DNA of 34,442 nucleotides from Anaerolineae bacterium (GTDB lineage Bacteria > Chloroflexota > Anaerolineae > Anaerolineales > Villigracilaceae), in NCBI GenBank assembly GCA_017303655.1, contig JAFLCE010000046.1, forward strand, positions 1 to 34,442, written 5' to 3'. Under the pieces are notes generated by a model, which was given only the letters and a program-made list of their open reading frames with translations, was not told where the DNA came from and made no database searches. The translations under genes and the position numbers were made by a program. This document shows, in pieces, positions 8,955-29,986 of the stretch. Position 1 is the stretch's first letter. Each line of letters starts with the position of its first letter.

Positions 8955-11894
8955 TTATTCCAAATCGGGGCAGAGCTTTCGATATTTCTCTTGCTCGAAA
9001 AACGAAGTCCATTCTTCAGGGGTGAAGTTCCGCAATAGACGGCTGCACGCAGCTGTGACCAAGTCCTCATCCATGATGCTAGTCAGACCGCTGGCATTGT
9101 AGTATTGCAGGGATTTTTGCGAGACCATCAACAATGTACCATCTGTCAGGAAAGTGATTCTACTTACCGCGCCTTTCTGACGAATTCGGTAGACCTCTTC
9201 GCCAGTCTTTGAATTCAAGACCAACACTTGATTCCCTAACCCGATCAAGAGATGATTTGTGACTGGCTGAAATGCCAGGGAATACCCCAACTCACCGGGC
9301 AGGCTGTAGGTCTCATTGAAAGATTGCCCGTCATATTCCCAAATATAAGTAGTACCGGTATTCGTATTCGATGCCAACGTTAGCCCGGTTGCATCGAAAG
9401 CAAGCGTTTTATTGATGCCAGGGGCGCGTAACTCTTGAAGCACAGTGCGTGATGAAAGGTCAATGACGATCACTCTACCTTCAACACCAATGGCAGCCAA
9501 CCCGCTTTGAGAAACAACCATCGAAACGATAGCACTATCCACAGTTAAGAGCGTGCCACTCTCTGCGCCATCGAGGCTGCGATATTGCACCAAGCCCTCA
9601 CTTCCAGCCATGATGAGATAACTGCCATCCGGAGGAAAAGCAAGCCATTGCTCCGTTCCTGATTTTGATAGAACTTCTTGGCTTTGGTTACGAGTATTTA
9701 AGATCGTAACTCTGCCATTCTTTGTAGAGATCGCTATATGAATACCATCTGGATGGAATGCCATATGTGCCACATTTTCTGTAAAAAAGTTGACCAGCGG
9801 CTGGCGTTCATTCACCGTCCGCGTGGTATCAGGCTGGGAGTTCAGCAACCAGACCTGCCCTTCGACAGAGGCGGCGAAGGTTTCTCCGCTTGGGCTTAAT
9901 TCCAAGTTTGAGATCGGTCCGCTAAATTGCAGGTATCCGATCGCTGATTTAAGTTCAGAGAGGTTCCAGATCGAAACGATGCCTTTCGCATCGCCAACCA
10001 CCAGTTGAGAACCATCTAGGTTGAAATCCAGATGTTTGCCTTCAGACCCAAGCGGGATCTGATACGCCTCGGCTCCATCGGCGACACGCCAGACATGCAC
10101 CGAAGTATCGGGACCCGTAGTGGCGATCCACTGACCATCGGGGCTTACCTTGATCTCACTCGCCAGGCTGTCTTGCAAAATACGCAAGCGTTCTGTGCCG
10201 GTCTTGGTATCCCAGATACGAATACGAAAATCATCAGAAGCTGTAACGAACCAACTGCCATCCGGGCTGAAGGCTACATCGCGCACTGAGTCTTCATTGA
10301 GGATCGGCGCATAAAATGGTCTGCCGGTTTCAACCACGCTCAAAATCGCATTTTTATCACTACCACCTGAAAGCAGGCGTTGACCATCCGGGCTGAAGGC
10401 AATATCCAAAATATCACCGCCGCGATGTGTAATGCTCGCCACGGGTCCGCCTTCTTCGGTCAAATTCCAAATATTAACCACGCCCTGATTTGAACCGACC
10501 GCGAGCCATTCGCCATCGGGGCTAAAAGCAGTCAGGCGAATGCTGCCAGTTGCATAAAACTCATTGACTTGTTTAAATGTGACCATGTCAATAAAAGTCA
10601 CACGCCCATCATTGCGAGCGATCACAAGGAATTTTCCATCCGGGCTGATGTTCACATCCAAGATCGGAACGCCATACTTGATCGCATTCAGAACTTCTCC
10701 AGAAGTTGAATCAAGAATCTGGACTAAACCCGTGTCATCAGACACTGCCAAAACGGAGCCATCGGGATGATACGCCGCATCCACAACGGACCCGGGGTTG
10801 GTTGCACAAAATAGAACTTCACCATCCTCAAAGCGGTTGAGACATAATTGCCCGTCATTACTGCCGGAAGCAAAGGTAAGTCCATCCGGGTTGACTTCAA
10901 GGGTGGTAATCGCTCCACCTTGTTCTACATTTGAAACCGGAGCAGGCAACAAGCTGACGTTGGCACGCAGGATCTCCTCCGCCTCTGCATTCGGGCTTTT
11001 TGTCCATGAATCAATTGCAAGCAAGGTACTGGTAAACAACCCGCCCGTTCGAGATTGAAATATCTGTGCGCGAGCAGCACTACGCTGGGCTTGGGCAATA
11101 TAGGCACTTTCTACAGCTTCTTCTTTTGCCTTATTGGCTTCGTCTCTGGCTGTTTCCGCCTCGCCCTTTGCGAATAGGGCTTCCTGTGCATTTGCATCCG
11201 CTTCACCTTTAGCTACCAGAGCTTCCTGACGCTGTTGCAGTGCTGCATAAGAGAGAAAGATCATAATGAGGACAGCCAGCGCCGCTGAGATCCAAGTGAA
11301 CGTTCGCACACGCTCATTGCGGCGGCTGGATACAATATACAATTTCTGTAAGTCAGAAGTCTTCGGGTCGCCTGCTTCATGTTGAGAGGTCATCTGCAGC
11401 GCATTGCGCAGGTCGCTGCCACGCAGTAACAGACTGGGGTCTTTCTTGCGGTCCCACTCCAGCGCGCGAACCTGCAAGCGGCGATGTTCTTGCAGCCAGT
11501 TCACATCCAAATTGACGGCTACTTTGATCAACCCCATCCCCGCATCAAAATCATCGGTCTCACGAATAAAGACCCAGTTTAGGTCACGAATTATGGAAAC
11601 TGTACTCCTTGGGTCCACATCGCGCACCACGATCGGGATGATGCGTTTGGCGTTTTTATAGGCATGCTCCAGTTCCACTTTACACACTTCTGAAGCGATC
11701 GAGTCAGGACTGACGAGAAAAAGAAAAGCATCTGCCGCTTCAATCCCTTGCAAGATCTGGTCGAGCCAACCCACAGCGGGCGGAATATCTTCCCAGTCCA
11801 CCCACACATCCAAATCCAGGGCGGTGATAGATGTGATCAGTTTTTTTGCGACAGCTGAGTCTTTTCGGGAATAAGAAATAAAAATGCCGGTCAT
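8955..11894 (-). CDS. TIR-transmembrane-WD40 repeat protein
   Basis: A 979-residue protein. Residues 1-130 are a TIR domain: G-I-F-I-S-Y-S-R-K-D at the start, then V-D-W-E-D-I-P, and V-C-K-V-E-L-E with E74 at the position of the catalytic glutamate of TIR NADases. Residues 135-195 contain a linker (R-A-L-E-W-D-R-K ... L-L-R-G-S-D-L) common in such bacterial proteins. A transmembrane helix spans about 199-219, followed by an Ala/Glu/Lys-rich coiled coil (220-275). From about 325 to 940 come WD40-type repeats (x-F-S-P-D-G-x-x-L-A-x-G-S-x-D). The TIR domain should be cytosolic. It is probably a single-gene unit acting as a sensor or scaffold; an NAD-cleaving defence role is possible but unproven. 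No partner effector gene is adjacent. Confidence 0.85.
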   Translation of the reverse strand: MTGIFISYSRKDSAVAKKLITSITALDLDVWVDWEDIPPAVGWLDQILQGIEAADAFLFLVSPDSIASEVCKVELEHAYKNAKRIIPIVVRDVDPRSTVSIIRDLNWVFIRETDDFDAGMGLIKVAVNLDVNWLQEHRRLQVRALEWDRKKDPSLLLRGSDLRNALQMTSQHEAGDPKTSDLQKLYIVSSRRNERVRTFTWISAALAVLIMIFLSYAALQQRQEALVAKGEADANAQEALFAKGEAETARDEANKAKEEAVESAYIAQAQRSAARAQIFQSRTGGLFTSTLLAIDSWTKSPNAEAEEILRANVSLLPAPVSNVEQGGAITTLEVNPDGLTFASGSNDGQLCLNRFEDGEVLFCATNPGSVVDAAYHPDGSVLAVSDDTGLVQILDSTSGEVLNAIKYGVPILDVNISPDGKFLVIARNDGRVTFIDMVTFKQVNEFYATGSIRLTAFSPDGEWLAVGSNQGVVNIWNLTEEGGPVASITHRGGDILDIAFSPDGQRLLSGGSDKNAILSVVETGRPFYAPILNEDSVRDVAFSPDGSWFVTASDDFRIRIWDTKTGTERLRILQDSLASEIKVSPDGQWIATTGPDTSVHVWRVADGAEAYQIPLGSEGKHLDFNLDGSQLVVGDAKGIVSIWNLSELKSAIGYLQFSGPISNLELSPSGETFAASVEGQVWLLNSQPDTTRTVNERQPLVNFFTENVAHMAFHPDGIHIAISTKNGRVTILNTRNQSQEVLSKSGTEQWLAFPPDGSYLIMAGSEGLVQYRSLDGAESGTLLTVDSAIVSMVVSQSGLAAIGVEGRVIVIDLSSRTVLQELRAPGINKTLAFDATGLTLASNTNTGTTYIWEYDGQSFNETYSLPGELGYSLAFQPVTNHLLIGLGNQVLVLNSKTGEEVYRIRQKGAVSRITFLTDGTLLMVSQKSLQYYNASGLTSIMDEDLVTAACSRLLRNFTPEEWTSFFEQEKYRKLCPDLE

Positions 11895-27979: not shown

Positions 27980-28549
27980 CTATCGTGGAACTTCGTGATG
28001 CAAACGGCAGCGGGCTTCGTACATTTCAGATGCCCCTACGATAACTACCGGTTCATCATAACGGGCGGGCTTTCCATTCACCAGACGTTGAGTACGTGAG
28101 GCATCATCGCCACAAACCATGCAAATGGCATGCAGCTTCAAAACCTCTTCTGCTTTCGCCATCAGCTCAGGCATTGAGCCGAATGGTTCACCGCGAAAGT
28201 CCATATCCAACCCGGCGACAATAACGCGAATACCGCGTTCTGAAAGGATGTGAGCAACGTTCACGATTTCACTATCAAAGAATTGTGCTTCATCGAGACC
28301 CACAACCGTGGTATCCGCAGCGATCTTTTCAAGGATATCATTGGCTTTCGTAATCGGTATGGCATCGAAGGTGGAACCGGTATGCGAGGCTACTTTCTCC
28401 ACTGCGTACCGAATGTCGATGGAAGGTTTGAACACTTGCACCTTTTGTTTTGCAATGGTCGCCCGTACCAGACGGCGAATAAGCTCATCCGTCTTACCAC
28501 TGAACATCGAACCACAGACAACTTCGATCAAGCCATGCGTATGCATCAT
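27980..28549 (-). CDS. tdk: Thymidine kinase, type II
   Basis: A 189-residue protein with the P-loop G-S-M-F-S-G-K-T near residue 13, Walker B-like [10 protein letters not shown], and a zinc-ribbon lasso region (C-M-V-C-G-D and a later C-R-L-H). It phosphorylates thymidine in pyrimidine salvage. Two adjacent ATGs (28549 and 28546) could start it; the ribosome binding site AGGAG in a purine run fits either. A terminator hairpin lies upstream between it and rpmE, so tdk may have its own promoter or be read through. Confidence 0.93.
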
Positions 28550-28684: not shown

Positions 28685-29239
28685 TTACTCGCCTGCTTCG
28701 GGGGTTTCTGTTGTCTCTGTTGTCTCAGCAGCAGTCTCAGCTGGTTTTTCAGCTTTAACTTTTTCGACCTTCTCAACCTTAGGAGGTTCAGGAAGTTCGA
28801 TCTCCAAAGCGCGCAGTTTCTTCTTGGCAGCCGTCAATGCAGACTGACCAAAACCGCTGATCGCAAGGAGAGCAGCATCGCCTTCAGCAAACTTTTCCAC
28901 GAGCTGACCAATGTTCAAAACACCAGCGCGCTTGAGTCCTTCAGTTGCGCGCGGGGTCAGACCAAGATCGTCCACAGAGCGGTTGTTGATGTTGGTGGAT
29001 TCTTCACGAGTCTTTTGATCTTCCACATAGGTCTGGCGGGCAGAAAGCTTCTTGTAAAAGCGATCAACCTGACCTTCCACATCGAGCAGCTTCGCAGACT
29101 CGCCAGTGTAAAAGGGATGGCAGTTGGAACAAACGTCGATGCGCAGTTCCTTCTTGGTCGAGGTCGTCGTCCAAGTGGTGCCACAGGATGCACAAGTGAC
29201 CTTGGCATCAAACACAGTAGGATGAATATCAGTCTTCAT
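28685..29239 (-). CDS. rpmE: Ribosomal protein L31 fused to an RNA-polymerase alpha-CTD-like domain
   Basis: A 184-residue protein, versus about 70 for ordinary L31. Residues 1-70 are zinc-type L31: M-K-T-D-I-H-P, C16-x2-C19 and C37-x2-C40, then Y-T-G. Residues about 86-150 match the alpha C-terminal domain of RNA polymerase: [11 protein letters not shown] (compare R-P-V-D-D-L-E-L-T-V-R of E. coli), G-L-K-R-A-G, then I-G-Q-L-V, and S-G-F-G-Q-S-A-L. The equivalent of R265 is kept, but N268, K298 and S299 are replaced, so UP-element DNA binding may be lost. Residues 150-184 are a low-complexity Glu/Lys/Thr tail. Start overlaps the rpmA stop (TAATG). Ribosome-RNAP contact is an inference. Confidence 0.85.
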
Positions 29240-29499
29240 TATTCTGCCTCAACAGGAACGATGTTGACACGCTTGCGTCCGTGAAAAACATCAAACATTA
29301 CGACGCCGTCTGCAACAGCAAACAAGGTATCGTCCTTGCCAACCATCACATTGATACCCGGCTTGATCTTGGTTCCGCGCTGGCGCACTAAAATGTTGCC
29401 AGAGAGCACGAACTGACCAGCATAACGCTTGACGCCCAAGCGCTGGGAATTACTATCTCTACCATTACGGGTTGAACCGCCACCAGTTTTATGTGCCAT
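29239..29499 (-). CDS. rpmA: 50S ribosomal protein L27
   Basis: An 86-residue protein starting [16 protein letters not shown], the L27 N-terminus that reaches the peptidyl transferase centre; no cleavable N-terminal extension as in Firmicutes. The middle has [11 protein letters not shown]. It is 13 bases after rplU and overlaps rpmE by one base, so L21, L27 and L31 are made together. Normal length. Confidence 0.96.
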
Positions 29500-29512: not shown

Positions 29513-29986
29513 TTACTTCTTTTCCGTCTTTTTTGACGTTGATTTCTTTTCAGTGGAAGGCTTCGCCGCCGCTTCTTTCGGAGCCTTGGCTGGTTTCTCA
29601 GCCTTGGGCTTCGGTTCCGCCTTGACCTTTACCGGCTTCTCCGCCTTGGCAGGAGCTTCCTTCTTATCACCCGGCTTGCCGATGAAATCGATCATCAAAC
29701 GGGTATAGTGAGCGCGGTTCCCGCCACGAACGCGGATGCGTTTCTTCGGGCGATACTTAAAGGACAGAACCTTGGGACCCTTGGTGTGCTCCACCACAGT
29801 CGCAGAAACGATAATTCCGCCGACAGTGGGTGTACCCACCAAAACAGCGTCTCCATCTGCCATGAGCATAACGCGCTCGAAATCAAACGATGTACCCACT
29901 TCACGGGCGAGGCGATCCACATCAACTGTGGTGCCTTCGACGGCACGATATTGCTTGCCGCCGCTTTCAACGATTGCAAATTTCAT
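29513..29986 (-). CDS. rplU: 50S ribosomal protein L21 with long C-terminal tail
   Basis: A 157-residue protein. Residues 1-104 are L21: M-K-F-A-I-V-E-S-G-G-K-Q-Y, G-T-P-T-V, F-K-Y-R-P-K-K-R and R-V-R-G-G-N-R-A-H-Y-T. The last 52 residues are a Lys/Ala/Pro/Glu low-complexity tail (repeated A-E-K-P and P-K-A) that ordinary L21 (about 103 residues) lacks. It leads the rplU-rpmA-rpmE operon. A near-consensus promoter and a 130-base leader with a stable hairpin precede it, where L21-type feedback control could act. Confidence 0.94.
   Translation of the reverse strand: MKFAIVESGGKQYRAVEGTTVDVDRLAREVGTSFDFERVMLMADGDAVLVGTPTVGGIIVSATVVEHTKGPKVLSFKYRPKKRIRVRGGNRAHYTRLMIDFIGKPGDKKEAPAKAEKPVKVKAEPKPKAEKPAKAPKEAAAKPSTEKKSTSKKTEKK

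Follow-up and report, generated by a model that had tools for sequence, protein, structure and literature searches.

Ribosomal protein bL31 with an RNA polymerase alphaCTD-type domain in one branch of Chloroflexota, the class Anaerolineae

We analysed a stretch of 34,442 nucleotides (contig JAFLCE010000046.1 of the Anaerolineae assembly GCA_017303655.1; hereafter the window), in which the gene rpmE encodes ribosomal protein bL31 followed by a domain of the type found at the C-terminus of the RNA polymerase (RNAP) alpha subunit (alphaCTD), with a tandem helix-hairpin-helix fold, (HhH)2. A preliminary description, made from the sequence alone, had reported the frame at 28685..29239 and left its strand unstated; we confirm the frame, which is encoded on the minus strand. 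The parts of the gene and its neighbours are given below, where A1 denotes an alignment of 28 members, the window's protein included, and pN/pS the ratio of non-synonymous to synonymous differences.

28685..29239, minus strand: rpmE, bL31 with an alphaCTD-type (HhH)2 domain; 184 amino acids (aa) plus stop, ATG start.
29042..29239, minus strand: zinc bL31 domain, residues 1-66 (C16, C19, C37, C40); PF01197, E 6.7e-26; cysteines conserved without exception in A1 (28 rows).
28985..29041, minus strand: linker, residues 67-85, mostly helical (model helix 57-82); pN/pS 0.29.
28790..28984, minus strand: alphaCTD-type domain, residues 86-150; PF03118, 33.6 bits; alphaCTD matches with Foldseek and VIA-align; pN/pS 0.25.
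28949..28951, minus strand: R97, the equivalent of alpha R265, retained in 83 of 95 L31 domains.
28838..28855, minus strand: GFGQSA hairpin, residues 129-134, with Gly at the alpha N294 position in 95/95.
28811..28825, minus strand: KKKLR, residues 139-143, a conserved basic patch of the L31 domains.
28688..28789, minus strand: disordered K/E/A-rich tail, residues 151-184, of variable length; predicted local distance difference test (pLDDT) below 50 over 154-178.
29239..29499, minus strand: rpmA (bL27), whose stop shares one base with the rpmE start (TAATG).
29513..29986, minus strand: rplU (bL21), the upstream gene of the cluster, without an alphaCTD-type domain in the window.
27980..28549, minus strand: tdk (thymidine kinase), a common downstream neighbour.

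Residues 1-64 match PF01197 (Ribosomal_L31) with 90.7 bits against a cut-off of 27, and all four zinc cysteines are present, in agreement with the preliminary description, which had called residues 1-70 a standard zinc L31. The alphaCTD-like block that it had placed after this part, and the profile search that it had proposed as a test, are likewise borne out: residues 78-143 match PF03118 (RNA_pol_A_CTD) above the gathering score (33.6 versus 23.8 bits, E 3.2e-8), and the tail alone scores 33.4 bits. Both quoted motifs (R-x-V-D-D-L-x-L-T-x-R and the second hairpin G-F-G-Q-S-A-L) are present in the frame. In NCBIfam, the first part is matched by L31 models and the tail by several rpoA models, and the isolated tail retrieves RNAP alpha chains from the PDB (best E 2.7e-6). 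The match to PF03118 extends to 26 of the 28 members of A1 (E<=0.01), in which G129, G131 and L102 are invariant. Furthermore, the predicted model of the fused protein (mean pLDDT 71, predicted template modelling score, pTM, 0.38) matches alphaCTD with both Foldseek and VIA-align, and the (HhH)2 alphaCTD fold is found in it. The identity, fold and conservation of the domain are established by computation; a chance match is ruled out by the curated cut-offs, the fold and the conservation, and an assembly artefact by independent genomes with the same fusion.

A match covering both L31 and the domain was found in 57 of 61 genomes, the window's own included, the remaining four (G003, G017, G035 and G041) showing an RpoA match only. 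In a sample of the phylum, L31 was matched in 148 of 151 genomes and was fused in 14, all of them in the window's class; the other classes of Chloroflexota, with L31 in 129 of 132 genomes, gave no fused case. Within the class sample (L31 in 145 of 150 genomes) 33 were fused and 112 unfused. Fused L31 occurs in 12 family labels of the class, and one label, f92, holds both a fused (G255) and an unfused (G228) genome. Among the best 80 of 549 confirmed matches in the named genome collection, 34 cover at least 144 query residues, and in the other 46 the match is no longer than 100 residues; the titles of the long matches name Chloroflexi, Chloroflexota or Anaerolineae groups in 33 cases and Candidatus Mesolinea (Anaerolineaceae) in one. 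The fetched frames of these 34 all hold the domain, while those without it stop early or bear unrelated tails; the survey of relatives that the preliminary description had asked for therefore returned the same folded domain and not unrelated low-complexity extensions. A plasmid-borne origin was considered and rejected, as the tblastn matches to plasmids (four records) are confined to the L31 part. In the genomes sampled, the L31-alphaCTD fusion is thus conserved within one branch of Chloroflexota, the class Anaerolineae. It should be added that two bL31 proteins (L242:639-1085, minus strand, and L227) have the alphaCTD-type domain without the zinc cysteines, and a third (L230) has neither.

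Of the 34 fused loci fetched, 33 show the genes in the order rplU-rpmA-rpmE, and the last (L050) is cut by the contig end. The window's assembly is 93.6% complete with 5.8% contamination, and PF01197 has a single match above the cut-off in it; the next match reaches 18.5 bits (E 0.0097) in a frame of 59 aa. A second L31 was sought in this genome and rejected, since a further weak match (E 0.78) holds no L31 frame. RpoA is encoded apart from rpmE, on two other contigs, and contamination may be the source of the two copies. A scan of the window with Rfam gave no family at gathering score. Elsewhere in the window, a protein of 979 aa (8955-11894, minus strand) combines an N-terminal TIR domain with WD40-type beta-propeller repeats.

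For the surface of the domain, E. coli residue numbers were mapped through motif columns, the numbering and the set of DNA contacts being those of E. coli alphaCTD (R265, N268, N294, G296, K298, S299 and E302). By alignment, the window's domain keeps R265 (R97) and has changed N268 (E100), K298 (S133) and S299 (A134), as the preliminary description had it; in addition, N294 (G129) and E302 (A137) are changed and G296 (G131) is kept. Most of the promoter-DNA contact residues are lost across the L31 family: among the 95 L31 domains, R265 is retained in 83, N268 in 23, N294 in none, G296 in 89, K298 in 48, S299 in 33 and E302 in 4, as against all seven in every one of the 23 distinct RpoA domains of the class. 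The N294 position is Gly in all L31 domains and in 17 of 20 NusA domains, so that the hairpin of the L31 domains takes the form G-h-G instead of the N-h-G of alpha; G-h-G is typical of phosphate-binding HhH motifs. Lys or Arg occupies positions 304, 305 and 308 in 97, 93 and 94% of L31 domains, compared with 61, 0 and 43% in RpoA of the class. Because the promoter-DNA face is degraded throughout the family, a direct copy of the DNA-binding role of alphaCTD is unlikely.

The domain is under purifying selection, estimated from pooled pairwise comparisons of 30 same-genus sequences, with values that are rough because synonymous sites are near saturation (dS 1.5, and 3.2 in the tail). By region, pN/pS is 0.12 (L31), 0.29 (linker), 0.25 (domain) and 0.43 (tail); the corresponding dN/dS values are 0.05, 0.14, 0.12 and 0.13, and dN/dS alone fails to separate domain from tail.

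As a marker of origin we used the loop that separates the residues equivalent to alpha L270 and N294, after removal of identical L31 domains (leaving 95 distinct) and with G255 kept apart. In the class, its length is 27 residues in all of the RpoA domains (23 distinct) and in all of the extracted NusA domains (20 distinct); RpoA domains from other Chloroflexota classes and other phyla have 24 (17 of 17). The L31 domains share the insert, with loops of 27 (70), 28 (14) or 29 (11) residues. Since this length is common to RpoA and NusA of the class, the L31 domain derives from transcription proteins of the class itself. Only part of the NusA proteins there carry an alphaCTD-like C-terminal domain, and the donor could equally have been the alphaCTD of RpoA or the C-terminal domain of NusA, the two being indistinguishable as donors. 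Of 44 L31 domains, 38 obtain their higher score from the NusA profile, but that profile is the broader one, and the two hhalign profile-profile comparisons are level (120.0 and 119.6).

In the combined tree, 37 of 43 L31 rows form one group apart from NusA (support 99/91), five domains of f83, f103 and f107 stand beside NusA (89/84), and the divergent row L227 falls among NusA; the L31 domain of G255 joins NusA from the family to which that genome belongs (97/93). Several separate captures onto L31 are suggested by this arrangement. Approximately unbiased (AU) tests did not reject a single clade for 44 L31 domains (p 0.24 and p 0.43), and the likelihood rose above that of the free tree when 43 of them were constrained to one clade. 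The best case for a separate capture is G255, whose L31 domain is 82% identical to the second copy in NusA of the same genome, while in G228 of the same family NusA bears a single copy and L31 (96 aa) is unfused. In G255 itself, NusA (L237:1619-3667, minus strand) has two strong C-terminal alphaCTD domains and the fused bL31 (L237:4499-4990, plus strand) lies at a distance of 0.8 kb, separated from it by rplU and rpmA. Capture in situ at the C-terminus of bL31, within the class Anaerolineae, is the best explanation.

Domains of this type also sit on other ribosomal proteins of the class. A C-terminal alphaCTD-type domain was found on bL21 (L284:182-913, plus strand, G269, 43.6 bits; L049:4017-4661, plus strand, 26.4 bits) and on bS16 (L285:678-1298, minus strand, G293, PF03118 60.0 bits; L286:664-1278, minus strand, G329, 40.1 bits). 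In the class sample of 150, with fusion called where a match reached the query end or came within 6 residues of it, the fused cases are 5 of 137 matched genomes for bS16 (G293 and G329, and by coverage alone G209, G239 and G312) and 4 of 113 for bL21 (G269, and by coverage alone G209, G329 and G293). These six genomes bear the labels f73, f102 and f106; L31 is unfused in five of them and G312 has no L31 match. L284 accordingly has a fused bL21 beside an unfused bL31, and L049 is an exception in which both are fused. bL21 and bS16 sit elsewhere on the ribosome than bL31. Across this one class, alphaCTD appears as a module that moves among proteins of transcription and translation, found on bL31, bL21, bS16 and NusA and as an insert in beta'. 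The insert is an alphaCTD-like domain in mid-frame of RNAP beta' (L238, plus strand, G252, residues about 746-810). Other proteins with such domains were seen as well: two in the window's genome (contig C133; L010:910-1665 and L010:2052-2639, minus strand; 251 and 195 aa) begin with one, and long proteins of G255 (L236, minus strand) and G330 (L203, plus strand) have several repeats followed by stretches resembling sigma-type helix-turn-helix.

As to function, the preliminary description had suggested that the protein links the ribosome to transcription or acts outside the ribosome. The fusion beneath that interpretation stands on profile, fold, conservation and the origin marker; its functional step has the standing of a proposal. 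We tentatively favour, at a rough probability of 0.38, that the fused domain is an additional docking arm of the ribosome and not a promoter-binding domain. bL31 joins uL5 of the 50S central protuberance to uS13 of the 30S head at bridge B1b, its C-terminal part lying on the head side (PMC10931766). The linker would then place the domain near the head, where the G-h-G hairpin and the KKxLR patch might grip RNA phosphates or a neighbouring protein. Several points weigh against such an arm. Model confidence is modest (the pLDDT and pTM given above) and the modelled placement of the domain on L31 is tentative; the mean net charge of the domain is -0.9, with no basic shift overall, and rRNA binders are usually positive; and the domains of f83, f103, f107 and G255 do not all retain the basic patch. 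Occurrence on bL21 and bS16, located elsewhere, speaks against a role tied to B1b, and for this reason we lowered the probability of the arm from 0.45 and came to regard a link to transcription as somewhat less doubtful than before. Should the domain prove to be ordered on the ribosome, these bacteria would have a ribosomal element, particular to their lineage, that is made from a domain of polymerase type.

That link, which we consider possible though still doubtful, would have the L31 domain bind the C-terminal domain of NusA or the alphaCTD of RNAP through (HhH)2 contacts and so tether the ribosome to the polymerase. The loop length common to the L31, RpoA and NusA domains of the class fits it, as do the 82% identity between the L31 domain of G255 and its own NusA copy and the presence of the domain on three ribosomal proteins, which would suit a tether independent of one site. 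By analogy, NusA-AR2 of E. coli binds alphaCTD, as stated in PMC4642336 and PMC12297416, and the L31 domain may make a comparable contact. The NusA domain accompanies fused L31 in 26 of 33 genomes and unfused L31 in at least 14 of 112 (by coverage, among the matches listed); in G228, G216 and G269 it was established apart from that listing, and G248 and G278 of the fused set have no NusA match. However, this co-occurrence follows clades and the counts ignore kinship, G251 (one of the 26) scored 0.0 bits with the domain profile, and f83, f103 and f107 have fused L31 with no such NusA domain seen. RNAP, moreover, probably docks elsewhere on the 30S subunit. A broader form, in which the class moved the module onto the ribosome (mostly onto bL31, and onto bL21 or bS16 in families with unfused bL31) as a built-in dock for NusA or RNAP independent of NusG-uS10, seems to us unlikely. 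If the domain does bind NusA or alphaCTD, coupling would run through a covalently built-in connection, and the existence of relatives with and without the fusion would make its evolution testable. There is also a slim chance that L31, when free of the ribosome, regulates the rplU-rpmA-rpmE cluster or further genes by binding its own mRNA or DNA through the domain. The retention of R265 and, in about half of the domains, of K298 would suit such a regulator, and bL31 is an autogenous repressor in gamma-proteobacteria, but the segment responsible for repression in them is the N-terminal one (both from PMC10931766). The loss of N268, N294, S299 and E302 in most domains and the negative Rfam scan of the window also disfavour regulation. 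We hold it equally improbable that the domain is a tolerated extension with no function, accepted by a bL31 C-terminus exposed at the surface. Many unrelated tails on unfused relatives and a tail dN/dS barely above that of the domain (at saturated synonymous sites) fit this view, which is countered by the retention of a folded domain in 12 family labels, by its lower pN/pS relative to the tail and by the three residues invariant in A1.

Compared with known systems, the protein resembles zinc-form bL31 (PF01197, rpmE) in its full zinc domain, its position next to rpmA and its single copy above the cut-off, and differs in the folded domain that follows, most L31 chains among the PDB matches listed having about 40 to 100 residues. 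Its second part resembles RNAP alphaCTD (PF03118) in the profile match, the (HhH)2 fold, the retained R265 and G296 equivalents and the loop insert of class RpoA; unlike alphaCTD, it sits on a ribosomal protein with no alpha N-terminal domain, has mostly lost N268, N294, S299 and E302 and has gained KKxLR. With the C-terminal domain of NusA (AR1/AR2 region) it shares the loop length and the Gly at 294; that domain, however, sits on a transcription factor and has mostly Glu at position 305, where the L31 domains have Lys. The bL21 and bS16 proteins of the class parallel it in their C-terminal alphaCTD-type domain, on other ribosomal proteins and with rarer fusion (4/113 and 5/137, against 33/145 for bL31, by coverage). 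Within the terms and the collection searched, no description of an L31-alphaCTD fusion was identified in the literature, while ribosomal proteins lengthened by a further domain have precedents in the extended bL21 models NF008916 and NF008915 of NCBIfam (presumably PRK12278). The new points are the pairing of L31 with alphaCTD, the fact that it has become fixed in many families on their only L31, the altered surface of the domain and the parallel in bL21 and bS16.
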